64,000 nucleotides of DNA from Methanolobus zinderi (lineage in GTDB: Archaea > Halobacteriota > Methanosarcinia > Methanosarcinales > Methanosarcinaceae): the NCBI RefSeq assembly GCF_013388255.1, contig NZ_CP058215.1, positions 1,798,001 to 1,862,000 of the forward strand. Reading direction: 5' to 3'. This document shows, in pieces, positions 17,402-27,864 of the stretch. The position numbers and the translations under genes were made by a program. The notes below the pieces were generated by a model. The model worked only from the letters and a program-made list of their open reading frames with translations. It did not search any database and had not been told where the DNA came from. How positions within the stretch are numbered: the stretch's first letter is position 1; each line of letters begins with the position of its first letter.

Positions 17402-18736
17402 TTAAAGCTGGCAGTCATTACTTTCCGTGTCACAGCTTATAAAATCATGATCATAGATGTCATCCATCTCTTCATGAAGATGTTTATGTTTATTCCCATG
17501 TTCATGCTTATGATCATGATCGTCTTCATCATCGTCATGATTGTGGTGATGGTGGTGATGATCATGCGGGTCATGCAAACGCTGGGATATAAAATTTCGC
17601 TTACTAAAGACCTGTTCCACATTTGAGTCAACCAGATCGACAAGCTGGTCCTCGTTCAGTCCGGAGATTGCAGTGAGGATCTTAAACCTTGGACCAGAAT
17701 GTGCAGTCGTTTTTATGATATTCATTTCAGGGTTTTCGGAATAGGAAGTTATGCTTATTTTTACAGTTTCATCAGGAGTTTCCAGGAACATCTTTATGTG
17801 TCCCACGAATTCAGGACTTAGTTTGATAATTTCGGATTTGACACTCTCGGCAATCTCCATGGAGATTACTTTAGCAGTTTCGCTATCAATGTCCTCCTCC
17901 AGTATTTTGTAGTCATTTGCATAAGAAGCAAGTCCTGAACTTTCACTGTCATAGTGTGTGTGATGTTCGTGATTGTGATTATCATGACTGTGAGGACCAT
18001 GGCCATCGTGTGCCTCATGATGATGGTCTCCATGATGATGCTTGTGATCTTCATCATGGCGACTATGGTCGTGGCATTGTAAACCTACAGTATGATCTTT
18101 CACAGAAGTTACTGAAGCATGACTTTCTTCAGCTAAAGATGGAACGATCATATCCATGAGTTCACTGAAGCCAGAGTCTCCTGCACGTGATGACATAGTA
18201 ATAACCCTGGCACTGGAATTGAGCTGTTGTACAGAATCTACAAGAACAGACATTTTAATAGGCTCAACAAGATCCGCCTTATTTATCACAAGTATCTCTG
18301 CATCTTCTATCTGTCTTAATGCATAGACCTTAACTGATTTCATGATGTCCTTGAAACGGCTACCATCTATTAGTGTCACAAGAGGTGCCACTTTGATATT
18401 ATCCCCGAAGTTCATTAATTCGAGTTCTTTTTTGATCAGATTCGGGAAAGCAATTCCTGAAGGCTCTACCAGAATATAATCTGGATTATATGAGTGGTAA
18501 AGTTCAGTTAGTGTTGTTTTCATGTTGAGTTTCAAAGTGCAGCAGATACATCCGTTTGTTATTTCCTTGGTGTCAAGTCCGTATTTTGAGATCAGGTCAC
18601 CATCAATACCTACTTCTCCAACCTCGTTCACAATTATTGCTACTGTGTGGCCTCTTTCAGCCAGTTCTTTTCCTACATTGATCACTGTTGTTGTCTTTCC
18701 GCTACCTAAAAAACCACCAATGATAATTGCATCCAT
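17402..18736 (-). CDS. CobW/G3E-family GTPase with two histidine-rich metal-storage segments
   Basis: A 444-residue G3E GTPase. Walker A is at 8-16, GCICC at 62-66 and NKAD at 152-155. Two very His/Asp-rich stretches are present: about 206-261, in the linker between GTPase and C-terminal domain, and about 388-430, near the end, containing HDHHHHHHNH. Such tracts store or buffer Ni, Zn or Co ions, as in HypB and some CobW proteins. The gene lies 64 bases upstream of its shorter paralogue, and both could be on one mRNA. The start is preceded by GAGG. A role in supplying metal to the adjacent chelatase CfbA is attractive but inferred; zinc supply is the main alternative. Confidence 0.87.
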   Translation of the reverse strand: MDAIIIGGFLGSGKTTTVINVGKELAERGHTVAIIVNEVGEVGIDGDLISKYGLDTKEITNGCICCTLKLNMKTTLTELYHSYNPDYILVEPSGIAFPNLIKKELELMNFGDNIKVAPLVTLIDGSRFKDIMKSVKVYALRQIEDAEILVINKADLVEPIKMSVLVDSVQQLNSSARVITMSSRAGDSGFSELMDMIVPSLAEESHASVTSVKDHTVGLQCHDHSRHDEDHKHHHGDHHHEAHDGHGPHSHDNHNHEHHTHYDSESSGLASYANDYKILEEDIDSETAKVISMEIAESVKSEIIKLSPEFVGHIKMFLETPDETVKISITSYSENPEMNIIKTTAHSGPRFKILTAISGLNEDQLVDLVDSNVEQVFSKRNFISQRLHDPHDHHHHHHNHDDDEDDHDHKHEHGNKHKHLHEEMDDIYDHDFISCDTESNDCQL

Positions 18737-20817: not shown

Positions 20818-21618
20818 TCACACCAGATTATATTTTTCAGAAATTTTCCATTTGGCATTGAGAAGATGGGAAATGGTTGCCGAAAATTCCTTGCCATTTG
20901 TCCAGATAGCCTTCAAATCGGTCTCCCCCTGATCCTCATTTATAACATCCACCAGTATCTCGGAATTATCAATAACGATCACAAAACTCTTAAGTTCACA
21001 TGGAACGTCCTGATCCAGATTGATCCGTACAGATGCAAGTGGTATATTTTCGGATATCTTGCGGGCTTCTTCTTCTGTAGAACTGACAAAACGTACATTC
21101 ACACCCTCAGCAATCTTTTCGTTGAATAGAGCCATGATCGTCTCGTAATCCTTTATAAAAGAAGGATACCTCCTGGCGAGTGTATAAAACGGTGTGGATG
21201 AACTCAGTACCAGAATCTCTTCCTGTGCATTCCCGACAAGCTGGATGATCTTATCAGCCACATTCCTGACCCCGTTTATGGTCCATATGGCTTCCTCCAA
21301 ATTATCCTCCGCCGAGCTCCGGTATATGCTATCCAGTTCAAGCAGGATGCTGTCACATTTATCCTCAAAACTGCGTTTGAGTTTGTTGACAGCATCTTCG
21401 GGAGGAAGACATTTATAGCGCACAGGTCGGGTATTCTGGACCTCTATCAGACCTTTTTTCTCAAGTTTTTTCAAAGCTCCGTAAATCGCTGAGCTGGGAA
21501 CACCAGAATCAGCATTAAGGGTTGCCACTGTAGCAGTATCGTTTTTCACAAGCGCTGCAAACACCCTGGCTTCATAGGAGGTGAAGCCGATTTCCTGAAG
21601 GGAATCTGTAAGAAGCAT
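20818..21618 (-). CDS. TrmB-family transcriptional regulator, last gene of the exporter operon
   Basis: A 266-residue protein with an N-terminal winged helix of the TrmB family (residues 1-80: LQEIGFTSYEARVFAALVKND, SGVPSSAIYGALKKLEKKGLIEV). A coiled-coil follows (about 85-110), then a ligand-binding-like domain containing EEILVLSSSTPFY and VIVIDNSEILVDVI. TrmB proteins often sense sugars or envelope-related compounds. It lies 23 bases after the NEW3 gene on the same strand, so it is likely the final gene of the MMPL-NEW3-NEW3-trmB operon and an autoregulator. A paralogue is encoded at 27004-27864. AGGTGAAG precedes the ATG. Confidence 0.85.
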   Translation of the reverse strand: MLLTDSLQEIGFTSYEARVFAALVKNDTATVATLNADSGVPSSAIYGALKKLEKKGLIEVQNTRPVRYKCLPPEDAVNKLKRSFEDKCDSILLELDSIYRSSAEDNLEEAIWTINGVRNVADKIIQLVGNAQEEILVLSSSTPFYTLARRYPSFIKDYETIMALFNEKIAEGVNVRFVSSTEEEARKISENIPLASVRINLDQDVPCELKSFVIVIDNSEILVDVINEDQGETDLKAIWTNGKEFSATISHLLNAKWKISEKYNLV

Positions 21619-21641
21619 CGGAATTCACTTCACCTGCCCGT

Positions 21642-22742
21642 TCAGTCTTTTCTGCCACTCAGTAATTTCCTGCCGCCGACATATACCAGTCCGAGAACTA
21701 TTATGACCCCACCAACTACAGCAAGGCTTGCCATACCGGAGCCAGACAAACCTGCTGGCAGGATCTCTACCCGGATCTTGATGGTGTCGGATATCTGGCT
21801 GTGTCCGTCGCTGTCCTCGTACTTGATCTCACTGTTAATGGCGTATACCTTCGGAACGGCCGATTCGTCCACCTTCAGCTTGAATATGGCCTCAGAGGTC
21901 TCACCTGGTGCGATTGAGCCTATAAAGGACTGGTCATCGGTTGTACTGAAAGGATCATCGGCACTAATCCTGACCGTGGCATCCCTTACTTCTTCTTCAC
22001 CTACGTTCTTATAGGCAACACGCAGCAAGCCTTCTCCGCCTGCTTCAAGATTAGCTGTGACGTTTGCGACCTCAAAGTCTGCTTCCTTTTCAACAACAAC
22101 GGAAAGCGGCTGAACCTGCTGGCCGACAGCATACCACATGCCAACTTCCATATTGGTGATACCAAGATCCGTCTCATTGTCACCATTCACCTGTACGTTC
22201 TCCTGATAACCATAGACCATGGTGAGATTGAGTGGATATTCTCCGGCAGGAGCGTTCTTTGATATCTCTATATTGAATTTTACAGGACTGTCCAGTTGCT
22301 GACCGCTTGAAAGGGAGCCTGCCTCCTGAGGGCCGGACTTTACTCTGACATACGGGCTGTCGGATTCCAGTGCTGCAACTATTCCGATGGCAGTGGTACG
22401 CTGTGCCTCATAACCCATCTCTGCTTTCTGCAACTTCTGATCCAGATCAGATCCGAAATCAGGCTCGTCGTCGGACTCAAAGCCGGTGATCACGCCTTTG
22501 TTCATGAGATTGATGCTGAGGGTTACCTCATCGCCACGGGAGAACTCATTGTCACCCACCATTGTGGCACTAACATCAGGACCACCATAAACAGTGTAGT
22601 AGTTCTCATCAAAATTGAAGAATTCCGGGAGATCCAGGTCCATTGTAGTCATTTCCTGGGCATATGCCTGTGAAGGGAACAACGCCAGGAGGACCAGCAG
22701 GACAAACGGAACTGACCTTAACAAGTTTTTGATCTTAATCAT
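21642..22742 (-). CDS. COG1361/NEW3-type envelope protein with C-terminal anchor (first paralogue)
   Basis: A 366-residue exported protein. It has a signal peptide (MIKIKNLLRSVPFVLLVLLA...AYAQ), an N-terminal block with YYTVYGGPDVSATMVGD and FSRGDEVTLSINLMNKG, and one or two immunoglobulin-like NEW3/CARDB domains (VTANLEAGGEGLLRVAYKN). A C-terminal helix (ASLAVVGGVIIVLGLVYVGG) ends in basic residues. The chain is outside the cell, anchored by its C terminus. The ATG at 22742 overlaps the end of the upstream paralogue by eight bases and follows GAGG; an ATG at 22784 would lengthen the N terminus without a site. Such proteins are often coupled to MMPL exporters; the exact role is unknown. Confidence 0.82.
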   Translation of the reverse strand: MIKIKNLLRSVPFVLLVLLALFPSQAYAQEMTTMDLDLPEFFNFDENYYTVYGGPDVSATMVGDNEFSRGDEVTLSINLMNKGVITGFESDDEPDFGSDLDQKLQKAEMGYEAQRTTAIGIVAALESDSPYVRVKSGPQEAGSLSSGQQLDSPVKFNIEISKNAPAGEYPLNLTMVYGYQENVQVNGDNETDLGITNMEVGMWYAVGQQVQPLSVVVEKEADFEVANVTANLEAGGEGLLRVAYKNVGEEEVRDATVRISADDPFSTTDDQSFIGSIAPGETSEAIFKLKVDESAVPKVYAINSEIKYEDSDGHSQISDTIKIRVEILPAGLSGSGMASLAVVGGVIIVLGLVYVGGRKLLSGRKD

Positions 22743-23865
22743 ATTTATCCTCTTCATTGTTCTTGATTTTATTATTGCTTCCATTTTTCCTTATATTCTT
22801 GATAATCAATACCAGCCCCATAATAACAAGACCTGCCAGGGCAATGGCTGTAATATTGAATTGTCTGTCAGGCATCCGGACATTTATATCTACCTTCATG
22901 TTCTCCGAAAACGCCGTTTCTTCATCATCGTCAATGTATCTGATCTCACTATCCAGACCATAGATCTTTTCCACTGCACTGTCAGATGAGCCGATCTCAA
23001 AGGAGATAGTCCTGCTCTCCCCGGGCTGAAGGGTTCCCAGACTTTTTACCGTATTCTCCGAGCTGAGAGGTTTCATTACAATTACCCTTGCCACAGCATC
23101 CTTTGCAGGGAGCTCTCCTATATTGGTGTAAGTCACATTGATGACATTGCTCTGACCTACTTCCAGATCTCCGGATACCTCACTTACCTCGAATCTTGCT
23201 TCCGGTTCCACGATCACAGGAATCTGCATTGTGGTATTGGCATTTTTATAATAATTTGCATGGTCAGTTGACAGACCCAGTTGTGCAACCTCATCGGTGG
23301 TCATCCTGACATCACTCTGGTATTCGTATTCCACCGGCAACTCCAACATGTAAGTTCCGGCAGGAGCATTGTTCGAGACAGTTAATGTAAATGTTAGGGG
23401 ATCGGGCAACTGGCCCGGTACTACCTCTTCCAGCGTCTGGCTGCTCGTTGCAGGGTCGACTTCGATGAACTCCGTGTTTGAAATGAGGGTAGTTTTTACT
23501 CCCTGTGCCGTGGTTCTCTTAGTCTCATATTCCAGTTCCGTAAGAGAAAGCTGGTGAAGCACTTCGGAGCTGCCTACATCCTTGTCTGCTTTCACACCTT
23601 TGAAGATACCGCGATTTGCAAGGACTATATTAATCTGAGCGGTCTCACCTCTGCTGAGTTCCGTATCACCGACAACCGATGAGTAAAGTGCCGGTTCGCC
23701 ATAAGTGTTGTAATAGTTCTCCGTATATTCATAAGGCAGAGGGATGTAATCCTTCGCACCTGCCGGCTGCATACACAGGACAAGCAGAGTTGCAAGAAGG
23801 ATACAGATAAACAGAGAACCTGAAATGATTCTTTTTTTGTTCATTGCTTTACTGAAATTATTCAT
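22735..23865 (-). CDS. COG1361/NEW3-type envelope protein with C-terminal anchor (second paralogue)
   Basis: A 376-residue paralogue of the preceding protein, with the same order: signal peptide (RIISGSLFICILLATLLVLCMQPAGA), the YYNTYGEPALYSSVVGD and LSRGETAQINIVLANRG block, NEW3-like beta domains (VSGDLEVGQSNVINVTYTN; GTLQPGESRTISFEI), and a C-terminal helix (ITAIALAGLVIMGLVLIIKN) followed by a Lys/Asn-rich cytoplasmic tail. It overlaps the exporter gene on one side (ATGA) and its paralogue on the other, so all three are translationally coupled. It probably forms an external accessory to the exporter, like a periplasmic adaptor; this is inferred. Confidence 0.82.
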   Translation of the reverse strand: MNNFSKAMNKKRIISGSLFICILLATLLVLCMQPAGAKDYIPLPYEYTENYYNTYGEPALYSSVVGDTELSRGETAQINIVLANRGIFKGVKADKDVGSSEVLHQLSLTELEYETKRTTAQGVKTTLISNTEFIEVDPATSSQTLEEVVPGQLPDPLTFTLTVSNNAPAGTYMLELPVEYEYQSDVRMTTDEVAQLGLSTDHANYYKNANTTMQIPVIVEPEARFEVSEVSGDLEVGQSNVINVTYTNIGELPAKDAVARVIVMKPLSSENTVKSLGTLQPGESRTISFEIGSSDSAVEKIYGLDSEIRYIDDDEETAFSENMKVDINVRMPDRQFNITAIALAGLVIMGLVLIIKNIRKNGSNNKIKNNEEDKYD

Positions 23866-26231
23866 GTAAGGTCTACCTCCGGAGTGTTCTTAGCCGGACC
23901 TGTGGCAGGAGTTAGTGTTACATCCTTCAATTGATTTTTCTTTTTCCCGTTCTCACGGTGAGTATCCAGGAACACTATCACAGCAGGGAATATGACAAAG
24001 GTTGCCAGCAATGCAAGCACAACATCGATAACGGTTATCATACCGAAACTGCTTGTGATTACAAAAGGTGAGGCTATCAGTGCCGAGAAACCGAAAACCG
24101 TGGTCAGGCCTGAAGTAAATATTGCCTTTCCGATCTTTACACTGGCTTCTTCCATAGCTTCTTCGGGACTTGCACCCCTTTCTTTTTCTTCGAAATACCG
24201 CTCCATCATGAGTACCGCATACTCAGAACCCACACCAAGGATCAGTGCACCCAGTGTCGCTGTCATAGGGTTGTACTCCATTCCGGAGTAGTACATGATA
24301 CCACCCGACCAGCCAACTACCATTGCCATTGTTATGACAGGTGTCAGTGCCTTGAGATAGTCACGGTAGATTACCAGCAGACCGAAGAATACCAGTACCA
24401 GACCAAGCAGTGTCATGAGTGTCCTTCCTGATGTAAGTGCGGCTATAACCTCAACAAAGACCATTGATCTGCCTGTGATGGTGGCACTTGTTCCGGGAGG
24501 GAGAGACATCCATGCTATATCCTCTTCAATCACTTCCCCGAGAGCTTCGATCCCTTCCAGCCCGAGCTCTCCCATGGCATTACCGATATTGAGGTTGAGC
24601 ATGGTCATCGTGTTGCCGTGCATATACCTTTCTCTGGTAGTCTCCGGCATCTGCTCATAAAGTGCAACTACCTCTGCCCTGTCATCAGGAATAGTTCCTC
24701 CGTTCATGCTTTTGACAACATCCACGATACTGCTGGAACCATATACATGGCTCCTGCCGTCCACTTCATGTTGACCGAACTCGTCCATCCATTTGAGCAG
24801 TTCGGGGTCTGCGTTATCAGAGGTTTTTATAATGATATTCAGTTCATCGCTGCCACCAAGGATATCACTCATATGCTGCAGGTCTATCAGTCCCGGCATA
24901 TCCTGTGGAACAAAGGTTTCGGTGTCCGTACTTATGGGAACTTTTGTATCAACATAGATACCACCAACACAGAGCAGGCCTGCAACTGCCAGTATGATTA
25001 GTGGATGGCGCATTGAGATCGCGGCAGTCTTTCCGATTACACGATCCAGGAAATCAGGACCTTCATCCTGCGTTTTAATTTCTTTTTTCTTTGAAGCTGA
25101 ATTTGGTTTGAGTTTTCTGATGATCGGGTTATCTCCCAGCCTGTCAAGACCGTAGATTACCGTAACACCTACAAAGAGAGATGAGAGGAAACACATCAGT
25201 ATACCTATCATCAGAAGTTTTCCGAAATCCTGTATCATAGGGACCGATGATGTGAACAGCGAGAAGAATCCAAGGGCTGTGATTATCAATGCTATTAGTA
25301 CTGCCGGCCCTGTATGCTTGACCGTATCGATCACAGCTTCTTCGGGGGATTCACCCTTTGCAAGTTCTTCTTCTATACGATTGTGGAACTGGATCGCATA
25401 ATCTATTCCCAGACCAATGAGTACCGGGAAGGCAGCCATGGAAACCATGGTCATCGGGATACTGAGATACCCCATGGCACCGAATGTGAAGATAATACCA
25501 AGCAATACGATGGGCAGAGGCAGAAGTCTCCAGCGTACATGCCTGAATACAAGATAGAGTACGATAACCATCAGAACAACGGAGAGCATGAGCAAAAGAC
25601 TCATACTGCTCATCATTTCCTCGTTCATGGCTATGTTGAACGCCGGGTCCCCTGTTACAATAATATTATAGTCAGCCGGGAAAAGCGCCATCTCGACCGA
25701 TCTTTCGGTCTCACGCAGAATATCCTCCTGCATGGCCTCTGAAGCGGAACCTGAGAAGACAACAGAAACAACTGCATGGGTCTGATCAGGTACCAGTGCT
25801 TCCGGAACATCCGATTCAATGATCTCATCGATCACCGCTTCATCCTCAGGAATCTCACTCCGGCCCGTGTTCTGATACGTCACGTCCTTAATAACAGATG
25901 AGGCAGAGGTGACCTCCAGTACATTGGGTATATTCTGTGTGGACTGCTGGAGGCGATCCATTGCCTTTAGCACCTCAGGCTGGGTGACATCGCTTCCTTC
26001 CACCATCACAACAATGGATTCCGTACTGAAGAGATTCATGTACAGATGGTCGAAGTCCTGATAGAGCTTTGAATCTTTATCGACAAAGGTATCGGTACCC
26101 GATGCCATCTCGATCATAGAGGCACCCTGGAAGGAGATGACCATCAATAATAATGCAATGATCAGAATGGGTATGGAATTATCCTCAATGAATACCCCGA
26201 GTTTTTCAAAATTGGCCTTTATGATCGACAC
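23862..26231 (-). CDS. RND-superfamily (MMPL-type) exporter
   Basis: A 789-residue membrane protein with the RND two-fold repeat. One helix at the N terminus (ILIIALLLMVISFQG) is followed by a large external loop and a five-helix bundle containing GLGIDYAIQFHNRIEEE. A second cycle follows, with helix, external loop and bundle containing GVGSEYAVLMMERYFEE. The paired GxGxD/E-Y-A motifs are typical of archaeal and MmpL-like exporters of lipids or other hydrophobic compounds, driven by ion gradients. It is the first gene of an operon with two NEW3 proteins and TrmB. The coordinate start is GTG at 26231, but this codon overlaps the Shine-Dalgarno AAGGAG; ATC at 26225 is the codon at normal spacing. 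Confidence 0.9.
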   Translation of the reverse strand: MSIIKANFEKLGVFIEDNSIPILIIALLLMVISFQGASMIEMASGTDTFVDKDSKLYQDFDHLYMNLFSTESIVVMVEGSDVTQPEVLKAMDRLQQSTQNIPNVLEVTSASSVIKDVTYQNTGRSEIPEDEAVIDEIIESDVPEALVPDQTHAVVSVVFSGSASEAMQEDILRETERSVEMALFPADYNIIVTGDPAFNIAMNEEMMSSMSLLLMLSVVLMVIVLYLVFRHVRWRLLPLPIVLLGIIFTFGAMGYLSIPMTMVSMAAFPVLIGLGIDYAIQFHNRIEEELAKGESPEEAVIDTVKHTGPAVLIALIITALGFFSLFTSSVPMIQDFGKLLMIGILMCFLSSLFVGVTVIYGLDRLGDNPIIRKLKPNSASKKKEIKTQDEGPDFLDRVIGKTAAISMRHPLIILAVAGLLCVGGIYVDTKVPISTDTETFVPQDMPGLIDLQHMSDILGGSDELNIIIKTSDNADPELLKWMDEFGQHEVDGRSHVYGSSSIVDVVKSMNGGTIPDDRAEVVALYEQMPETTRERYMHGNTMTMLNLNIGNAMGELGLEGIEALGEVIEEDIAWMSLPPGTSATITGRSMVFVEVIAALTSGRTLMTLLGLVLVFFGLLVIYRDYLKALTPVITMAMVVGWSGGIMYYSGMEYNPMTATLGALILGVGSEYAVLMMERYFEEKERGASPEEAMEEASVKIGKAIFTSGLTTVFGFSALIASPFVITSSFGMITVIDVVLALLATFVIFPAVIVFLDTHRENGKKKNQLKDVTLTPATGPAKNTPEVDLT

Positions 26232-26267
26232 TCCTTAGTATTTATTCGAATAATAAAACTCCTTTTT

Positions 26268-26319
26268 GGTTGTTTTAACTGCAATATTGCTATATAAGGG
26301 TTTTACCCTTAAAACAACC
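26268..26319 (-). promoter_or_regulatory. Compound palindromic operator around the TATA box of the exporter operon
   Basis: Three nested palindromes lie 37-94 bases before the exporter gene. The outer arms are GGTTGTTTTAA (26268-26278) and its exact reverse complement TTAAAACAACC (26309-26319). Inside are GCAATATTGC (26281-26290) and TAAGGGT-TTT-ACCCTTA (26295-26311). TATATAA at 26291-26297 serves as TATA for minus-strand transcription, placing the start near 26266. A repressor binding here would block the TATA box. Since the operon encodes a TrmB protein and the half-site GTTGTTTTAA recurs at 26944-26953 before a second trmB gene, TrmB is the natural candidate. Confidence 0.6.
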
Positions 26320-26595
26320 TGCAAAAAGTGAAAAGTAAAGTATGGCGACAACTTGCTTTTTATGCTGCAGAACAGGTCTTCTTCAATCCCAAAAAGCTGA
26401 AGCTGACAAAGTCTGCTTTTTCCGAAACTATAAATAGGTTTAACAGTTTCCTGAATTTTTGCGCAATTAAGACAAACCTGACTATTTATCGTCATTTAAA
26501 GCATATAATAAGAAATCTGCTATATAACATTTCCTATTTCTGAAGAAGTTCTCTATTCAAATCTGAATTAAAGAAATCAAAATTAAGGAAAAAGG

Positions 26596-26624
26596 AGAGA
26601 CACCTACTGGAGGTGTCTCTTTTT
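26596..26624 (+). terminator. Strong orphan hairpin terminator, possible end of a small RNA
   Basis: AGAGACACCT-ACTGG-AGGTGTCTCT-TTTT is a perfect ten-pair stem with T tail on the plus strand. No plus-strand gene ends nearby. Upstream at 26428-26436 there is CTATAAATAG, a textbook archaeal TATA box, which would give a transcript of about 160 bases ending at this hairpin. This may be a small non-coding RNA between the divergent exporter operon and trmB2. No convincing ORF lies in the interval. Confidence 0.55.
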
Positions 26625-27003
26625 GGGGTGGTTGGATTGGTGGTACTGAATTCACGACAAGTTTTGCCGTGGGTACACGGTATGAGATTGGATTATTAAT
26701 ACATAAACCTTTCTATATATCGAAGTGTTTGAAATTATAAACTCGAGAGTGACTGGATATACTAGAACTAAACTCTCATACGGTGTGTAACGAGAGAGGA
26801 AACACCCTTGCCAATACAAAGAGAAAAAGTAAACTTAAAGATTTCACTCTGGAAAAAACTGGTAAAGAGTTGAACCACATGCATTAATAAATATTTTAAT
26901 CCATACAAAAAGCTACAAAACTTTTATTAAAAACCTCTGCTTAGTTGTTTTAAATTTGAAGACACAATAATGATAATAATACAATAATCAAGAGGGCAGA
27001 CAG
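26625..27003. promoter_or_regulatory. Intergenic region upstream of the second TrmB gene
   Basis: AT-rich DNA without a gene. It contains an inverted repeat with arms about 100 bases apart (ACACGGTATGAG at 26675-26686; CTCATACGGTGT at 26775-26786, one mismatch) and a small CCGTG-GGTA-CACGG hairpin at 26667-26680. At 26944-26953 GTTGTTTTAA repeats the operator half-site of the exporter operon. TATA candidates near 26885-26900 and ribosome site GAGGG at 26991-26995 belong to the next gene. Confidence 0.4.
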
Positions 27004-27864
27004 ATGGATAACGAGAGATTGCTCAGAGATCTTGGACTTACTAAATACGAGTCATCCGCTTACTCCACACTCATAAAAGAAGGAGTTACAGGTGCACAGG
27101 AGCTCTCACGCATATCAGGCATACCCGTGGGGAAGATATACGAGGTACTTTCAAACCTGAACAATATGGGACTTGTAGTGTTCCAGAGATCAAGACCCAG
27201 GAAATACAGAGCAATAAAACCGGAAGTTGCACTTGACAACCTCTACACCAGGAAAGAAGAGAATACGAAAAGCGAACTTGAAAGTTTCAAACTGAAGATA
27301 TCGGAGCTCAAGGACAGCTTTTCAGACAGCAATTATCCGGACCACACCGAGATCAAGTTCTGGTCAACACTTATCGGCGAGGAAGACATAGTCAAGAGTA
27401 TAAAGAACACGCTGGATGAAACCGAAAATGAGATCCTGCATGTCAAGTCCATGAAGACAAAAGAAGCTCTGCAGAACAAGACCAGACGCCACAAGGATCT
27501 GAATCCAAACATACTTCTTCCCCTTGTGACAGACGAGTTCATCCGGGCTGCAAAATCCGGGATTAAAATAAAGATGCTATTGCCTGCGGATTTTTTCATA
27601 ACCCACCTGAAGGAGAAATACACCCATATTGAGGATTCAAATGTGAGGAAAACAATTAAAGAGAATCTGGAAGTAAGAATCCTAGAATGTGACTATGATT
27701 TCGTGGTAATCGATGACAACGTGGTATACATACCTATCCCCGACCCGCTGAACCCGGACGGACTGCTCGGGGAAATGAAGATGTTTGACAAGGAATACGC
27801 TGAAAAACTTCGAAAGAAGTATGATGAGCTGTGGGCGAGGGGGAAGAGGACTGTACTGGAGTGA
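27004..27864 (+). CDS. TrmB-family transcriptional regulator (second copy)
   Basis: A 286-residue TrmB protein with an N-terminal winged helix (LLRDLGLTKYESSAYSTLIKEG; SGIPVGKIYEVLSNLNNMGLVVFQRSRPRKY). A long coiled-coil (about 80-110) follows, then an effector domain with NEILHVKSMKTKE, IKIKMLLPADFFI and VVIDDNVVYIPIPDPLNP. It is a paralogue of the regulator at 20818-21618. It is divergent from the exporter operon and shares an operator half-site with it, so the two TrmB proteins may regulate each other. The ligand is unknown. Confidence 0.85.
   Translation: MDNERLLRDLGLTKYESSAYSTLIKEGVTGAQELSRISGIPVGKIYEVLSNLNNMGLVVFQRSRPRKYRAIKPEVALDNLYTRKEENTKSELESFKLKISELKDSFSDSNYPDHTEIKFWSTLIGEEDIVKSIKNTLDETENEILHVKSMKTKEALQNKTRRHKDLNPNILLPLVTDEFIRAAKSGIKIKMLLPADFFITHLKEKYTHIEDSNVRKTIKENLEVRILECDYDFVVIDDNVVYIPIPDPLNPDGLLGEMKMFDKEYAEKLRKKYDELWARGKRTVLE

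Follow-up and report, generated by a model that had tools for sequence, protein, structure and literature searches.

Archaea have resistance-nodulation-division (RND) pumps and no outer membrane, and it is this absence that makes the role of the partner proteins of such pumps matter. A locus of Methanolobus zinderi poses the question directly: what do two membrane-anchored surface proteins do beside an RND exporter, and how is the module controlled? The locus lies in a stretch of 64,000 nucleotides (positions 1,798,001 to 1,862,000 of contig NZ_CP058215.1), which we call the window and in whose coordinates all positions are given; the four genes, all located in the window, follow one another on the minus strand in the order HAE3-family RND exporter (MMPL), first NEW3 protein, second NEW3 protein and TrmB-family regulator. 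We favor the reading, at a probability of roughly 0.6, that the exporter works with two paired, anchored NEW3 partners under TrmB control, and that the pump is throttled by a near-cognate start codon. Computed here, and carrying this reading, are the order of the genes and how it is conserved, the pump's fold as an RND protein, acidic residues of the proton-relay type, two ancient NEW3 clades and the conserved position of a non-ATG start.

Organization of the locus

The exporter gene spans 23862-26222 if, as discussed below, it begins at an ATA codon; the open reading frame (ORF) from the first conventional start, a GTG at 26231, spans 23862-26231. The gene of the first NEW3/COG1361 protein (22735-23865) overlaps that of the pump by 4 bases (ATGA), and its product has a signal helix, Ig-like domains and a C-terminal transmembrane (TM) segment. 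For the second NEW3/COG1361 gene (21642-22742) the ATG at 22742, which lies behind a GAGG, is a likelier start than the first ATG at 22784, and would give an 8-base overlap with the first NEW3 gene. The regulator gene (20818-21618; PF01978, E 1.1e-21) follows after 23 bases. An earlier note on this DNA had proposed just such a set of overlapping genes, with a TrmB gene 23 bases beyond it and with a signal peptide and a C-terminal anchor in both NEW3 proteins, and this description holds: the successive overlaps measure 4 and about 8 bases, and the two NEW3 proteins, each with hydrophobic segments at both ends, are paralogous to one another (E 3e-58; 32% identity across 346 columns).

Conservation of the pump-NEW3 linkage

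HAE3 was found in 96 of 100 sampled Methanosarcinaceae genomes, 60 of which were used to count linkage. These yielded 84 pump rows, from which ten fragments were set aside to leave 74 of full length (above 1.9 kb); among the NEW3 matches listed, two lie within 2.5 kb of 59 of these pumps, one lies near 7 and none near 8. Counted from the other side, 132 of the 150 listed NEW3 matches adjoin an HAE3 pump, so that the frequent separation in relatives that the earlier note had named as telling against the idea was not what this survey found. Among 80 named loci a NEW3 gene lies downstream of the pump in 71, two of them in 51 of those, and several of the remaining nine are at contig ends. The first NEW3 gene overlaps the pump gene by 4 bases in 47 of the 71 and by 1 base in 7. 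On these counts we rejected chance adjacency. The neighborhood survey displayed a single NEW3 gene for L064, L066, L068 and L070 as a result of dropping long overlapping ORFs, and these loci do hold both genes; the locus sets L034-L113 and L134-L213 come partly from the same genomes and are not independent.

The layout differs in other groups. Methanothrix-type genomes have one NEW3 gene downstream of the pump, downstream being the arrangement of the Methanosarcinia, an Archaeoglobus-like family (f9) and other families have one long NEW3 gene upstream, and three NEW3 genes flank the pump in L102 and L103; in the more distant family of L109-L111, matches to the NEW3 profile lie just upstream of HAE3. 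The coupling is thus kept despite altered gene order, and the linkage survives rearrangement. Two irregular arrangements may be recorded here. A genome of the Methanothrix harundinacea type (L079, and L198) has a tandem array in the order pump-NEW3-pump-NEW3; and at an Archaeoglobus-like locus (L083, 6992-9244) two overlapping frames, just upstream of the pump, make up the NEW3 gene, as the result of either gene breakage or a sequence error.

The pump

The exporter matches the HAE3 family (TIGR00921, which we take to be TC 2.A.6.7) over model positions 7-732 of 733, scoring 748.5 bits against a cut-off of 351.9, and we see no difference from that family among the features compared. A profile search of the 2.70 Mb genome finds this single clear member and two further weak matches, presumably SecD and SecF. 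The AlphaFold model is that of a 12-TM RND protein (pLDDT 90.9), with no long extracellular extension. A Foldseek search places MmpL4 and MmpL5 at the top, and the same two are the closest solved chains by sequence profile; with VIA-align, AcrB-type pumps and Patched score highest (Z about 40, root-mean-square deviation (rmsd) about 6). In an alignment (A2, from which L087, L091 and L105 were left out since their locus listings hold no pump) all 66 pumps have an acidic residue in TM4 followed by Tyr, and all 66 have one in TM10 followed by Tyr or Phe, acidic-aromatic pairs that fit proton-driven transport.

Two clades of NEW3 proteins

The second NEW3 protein scores 31.0 bits against PF10633, above the Pfam cut-off of 24.4, and the first falls just below it at 23.5. 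The model of the second protein (pLDDT 87.2) consists of two beta sandwiches, into one of which a short helical stretch is inserted, followed by a C-terminal membrane helix, and has helices only at residues 2-35, 113-130 and 351-376. Domains of transglutaminase and of archaeal Fsx1 are among its best fold matches, and its second domain together with the anchor aligns with a TRAP subunit (Z 9.5, rmsd 4.4, 146 residues). AcrB-type adaptors and MmpS chains are absent among the fold-search matches listed, which does not exclude a relation. Two assignments were rejected on architecture: that to the HlyD/MFP periplasmic adaptors, because there are two beta sandwiches and neither a helical hairpin nor lipoyl or barrel domains, PF10633 being the only Pfam match; and that to the MmpS family, whose members have an N-terminal TM helix and one beta domain where NEW3 has a C-terminal TM helix and two.

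A maximum-likelihood tree built on 73 NEW3 rows sets first copies apart from second ones in two groups of 30 rows each (support 100/100 and 100/99), to which the two proteins of the window respectively belong, and single-NEW3 forms fall outside both. The order first-then-second is kept in every two-NEW3 module of the Methanosarcinaceae in the tree; the exception is a pair of L079 rows labelled first and second, which come from the tandem array in a Methanothrix-type genome of another family. The separation of the clades implies that the duplication is older than the Methanosarcinaceae, and that one copy of each kind has been kept since, in the same order. A motif, PF-S-DD-A-LG, is kept in the second protein and lost in the first; it is also found in single forms, in distant ones and in cupin-linked ones, and in part in ABC-linked forms.

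NEW3 genes beside other exporters

NEW3 genes of the same family also occur away from pumps. Most of those at L114-L125 and L133 adjoin genes for an ABC ATPase and an ABC-2-like permease, neighbors that were checked by Pfam in L114, L118, L124 and L133 only. At L118-L123 the NEW3 protein has no C-terminal anchor, unlike those linked to pumps. On these neighbors the idea that pump-less NEW3 genes are mere orphans can be rejected for most of L114-L125 and L133; the loci L126-L132 differ and are taken up below. That one partner family is common to RND and ABC exporters hints, more strongly than any other observation, that these proteins are adaptors and not cargo.

Known systems and how the module may work

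The earlier note knew of no characterised archaeal system of this kind, and this did not stand. A 2024 study in Haloferax, drawn on here in excerpt as are the other papers cited, describes haloarchaeal RND permeases coupled to C-terminally anchored glycoproteins of Ig fold, with AlphaFold indicating an Ig-fold fibre in a one-partner system and with a wide association of the two (PMC11349517). In the excerpted part of that study HVO_A0467 and HVO_A0466 of Haloferax volcanii resemble our module in having an RND/MMPL permease, an overlapping operon and a partner with Ig folds and a C-terminal TM segment, the partner HVO_A0466, compared by description only, being one secreted glycoprotein with four predicted Ig folds encoded upstream of the pump (PMC11349517); here, by contrast, there are two shorter paralogous partners downstream, and a TrmB gene. 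An RND pump with an anchored Ig-fold partner is therefore already known in archaea in one-partner form. The features that look new are the heteromeric pair with its conservation, the occurrence of the same family beside ABC-2 exporters and the isoleucine-codon start of the pump; for the two-partner module and the ABC-2 link we found no prior report in the open-access literature searched.

In Gram-negative bacteria adaptors of the AcrA and MacA type serve both RND and ABC exporters. They thus resemble NEW3 in being one partner family for two kinds of exporter, and differ from it in that the NEW3 model has no helical hairpin, has a C-terminal membrane helix and has no outer membrane to reach. 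The nearest solved relatives of the pump are those of Mycobacterium, MmpL5-MmpS5 and MmpL4-MmpS4, in which the partner is likewise a small, single-pass, beta-rich protein from an overlapping gene. The excerpt seen of the MmpL5 work describes a trimer locked by the adaptor MmpS5 in a 3:3:3 assembly with AcpM (PMC12346298). The MmpS proteins have an N-terminal TM helix and one beta domain, whereas the archaeal partners are two, larger and C-terminally anchored, and MmpL5 has a long helical hairpin that is missing from the HAE3 pump model. MmpL5-MmpS5 is the closest mechanistic precedent.

We suggest that the HAE3 pump, driven by protons, may export a hydrophobic or amphiphilic compound, and that, most probably, both NEW3 proteins would form a hetero-oligomer with it, packing their ectodomains and the single C-terminal helix of each on its outer face and stabilising or extending the exit path as MmpS5 does for MmpL5. 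TrmB (MarR in some relatives) would adjust expression of the operon to a small molecule, in keeping with a role in efflux or export, and the overlapping start could couple translation of the first NEW3 protein to that of the pump. In excerpted results from Haloferax and E. coli, overlapping gene pairs were coupled in 13 of 14 tests (PMC6728339). That a complex forms, with what stoichiometry, for which substrate and in answer to which signal to TrmB, are points at which we infer. The external collar proposed by the earlier note is plausible as far as a collar-like role goes, because the pump has no long extension, MmpL4/5 are its nearest kin and the MmpL5 trimer is locked by MmpS5; the NEW3 proteins do not, however, have the alpha-hairpin architecture of Gram-negative adaptors.

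A wider proposition can be offered tentatively, and we hold it to be somewhat less probable than even odds: that NEW3/COG1361 proteins with a C-terminal anchor constitute a class of archaeal adaptors for both RND and ABC-2 pumps, a parallel to the bacterial adaptors with a fold unrelated to theirs, that the heteromeric pair is obligate in the Methanosarcinaceae and that the start-codon throttle is selectively maintained.

Two other explanations of the pair deserve weighing. The NEW3 proteins could be S-layer or envelope proteins, or cargo of the pump, co-transcribed with it as part of a shared envelope programme. The name S-layer domain protein is widely given to members of COG1361 (PMC10694973), one weak NCBIfam match of NEW3 is to a putative S-layer protein, and the Ig-like fold is a generic one; against this, neither protein has lost its C-terminal membrane anchor, the two accompany the pump in a fixed order and the same family also adjoins the unrelated ABC-2 exporters, so that we regard this explanation as unlikely. 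About equally doubtful is a pair that captures or delivers a substrate outside the cell, as a lipid or siderophore chaperone would, and forms no structural collar. Two divergent copies could bind different ligands, the family motif is kept in the second and lost in the first, and a haloarchaeal counterpart has been proposed as a siderophore exporter (PMC11349517, in excerpt); the model of the second protein is nonetheless one of ordinary Ig-like sandwiches, and no biosynthetic genes were recognised among the neighbors scanned.

Several observations weigh against a TrmB-controlled pump with two NEW3 partners. As noted, 8 of the 74 pumps of the family have no adjoining NEW3 among the matches listed, and many pumps elsewhere, such as those of the Methanomicrobiales-like L094-L100, have none alongside; NEW3 is therefore not obligatory for HAE3 function in general. 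The acidic residue of TM10 is mostly Glu, unlike that of MmpL3, which we take to be Asp. As a fold, NEW3 is an Ig-like sandwich of a common sort, resembling TRAP, transglutaminase and integrin domains too, and taken alone it points to no function. Deletion of a haloarchaeal pump was without effect on growth, according to the excerpt of that study (PMC11349517). Finally, seven NEW3 genes (L126-L132, Methanomicrobiales-like) stand beside a short cupin gene, with no exporter. This short gene abuts or overlaps the NEW3 gene and in the two cases checked encodes a cupin-type glucose-6-phosphate isomerase, and a divergent TrmB gene is present in several of the loci.

That a surface protein should be paired with a sugar enzyme, as at L126-L132, is odd in its own right. 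More generally, the fact that ABC-2 exporters too have members of this partner family at their side may point to an adaptor principle general among archaea, and a conserved pump with a heteromeric surface pair is open to testing, as the family includes genetically tractable methanogens.

A probable near-cognate start codon in the pump gene

Judged from the sequence, the pump gene probably starts not at the GTG at 26231 but at the ATA at 26222-26220. A Shine-Dalgarno motif, AAGGAG (26231-26236, minus strand), lies 8 bases before the ATA, which is the commonest spacing among relatives, and the GTG overlaps it. Conservation in the pump frame switches on at one exact codon, followed by K-N-x-F-E-K-L-G; the profile was made from rows beginning with AT, so that its first two bases are invariant by selection. 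An anchor for this position was present in 98 distinct loci, from which 7 with one NEW3 gene were left out to give 91 with two or none; loci with no such anchor, the Methanothrix-like ones included, stand outside the count, and some of the latter also look like isoleucine-codon starts. The codons are ATA in 42, ATT in 30, ATC in 11, TTA in 3, ATG in 2, GTT in 2 and CTG in 1, giving an isoleucine codon at 83 of the 91. In 56 of these 83 there is no ATG, GTG or TTG back to the in-frame upstream stop, which is often only four codons away, and all 56 have a Shine-Dalgarno-like motif in the 20 bases before the isoleucine codon, mostly at a spacing of 8.

As a control, we counted homology extending at least 12 residues upstream of the first ATG, GTG or TTG, and found it in 52 of 100 pumps, compared with 0 of 158 NEW3 genes, 3 of 71 TrmB genes and 2 of 144 other genes from the same loci. 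Mapped on a tree, the third position of the start codon has undergone no fewer than 14 changes, one of which is inferred to have been to G, and a nearby fourfold site has undergone 32, several of them to G. The TTA, GTT and CTG codons, and the conventional starts of Methanimicrococcus and of single-NEW3 modules, show that the isoleucine-codon start is common and not universal. In Methanosarcina the eye picks out a conserved leader ORF that overlaps the ATT start; this was dropped as a candidate because several relatives do not have it.

It is quite improbable that the start has been misread, with translation beginning at an upstream GTG (Methanolobus-like genomes have one three codons before the isoleucine codon) or at a conventional start further inside, given the 56 of 91 loci that offer no conventional codon upstream, the place of the GTG inside the ribosome-binding motif and the regular spacing from that motif, the ATG at the exact isoleucine position in two relatives, the onset of residue conservation at that codon, and the loss of TM1 that many internal starts would entail.

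Archaeal aIF1 discriminates against non-canonical starts, as stated in the excerpt of a study of the factor (PMC8211752), so that a weak start would throttle the pump. Initiation at AUA, AUU or AUC may thus hold pump synthesis down and limit its amount, which is the purpose we would ascribe to it.

If the start is what it seems, its conservation in one gene throughout an archaeal family would offer a natural setting in which to test how archaea select start codons, and gene callers that accept no codons but ATG, GTG and TTG would cut about half of these pumps short. In E. coli infC starts at AUU, likewise a near-cognate codon kept by evolution; the difference is that here the gene is that of an archaeal exporter and ATA, ATT and ATC interchange. 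We found no prior report of this feature of the pump gene in the open-access literature searched.

Regulation

Six genes of the genome match PF01978 above the Pfam cut-off, and the two strongest flank the pump module: the one downstream, which scores 21.6 bits against the sugar-binding PF11495 (cut-off 22.2), and a second, divergent one on the plus strand at 27004-27864 (PF01978, E 4.5e-21; DUF7436, E 2e-15). TrmB genes are enriched alongside the NEW3-bearing module. In a first set from the family, using loci with 4.5 kb on both sides of the module, a TrmB gene of full length and expected orientation accompanies 22 of 30 pumps that have NEW3 and 0 of 9 that have none; in the named set the corresponding counts are 21 of 44 and 0 of 4, and in a wider set 8 of 25 and 8 of 17. 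The 20 non-pump NEW3 loci contain 8 TrmB ORFs in 308 kb, which shows that the regulator is not unique to pumps. MarR regulators are often tied to efflux, and a MarR gene lies upstream of the pump in some relatives (two checked).

Two further elements lie before the pump gene. A candidate operator at 26268-26319 consists of a perfect 11-base inverted repeat, GGTTGTTTTAA/TTAAAACAACC, with its arms 30 bases apart around a TATA-like stretch; no such repeat arose in 100 shuffles, and one arm is conserved in most Methanolobus-like upstream regions. Between the divergent TrmB gene and the pump lies a candidate small RNA on the minus strand (26590-26715), with a TATA-like box of its own, a C-rich single-stranded stretch and a terminator-like hairpin. 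A search of the region gave no Rfam match at E 0.1, and the candidate is conserved in 13 aligned Methanolobus-like loci.

Elsewhere in the window, at 17402-18736, we note a gene for a CobW-family GTPase with extremely His-rich stretches, which is likely a metal chaperone.

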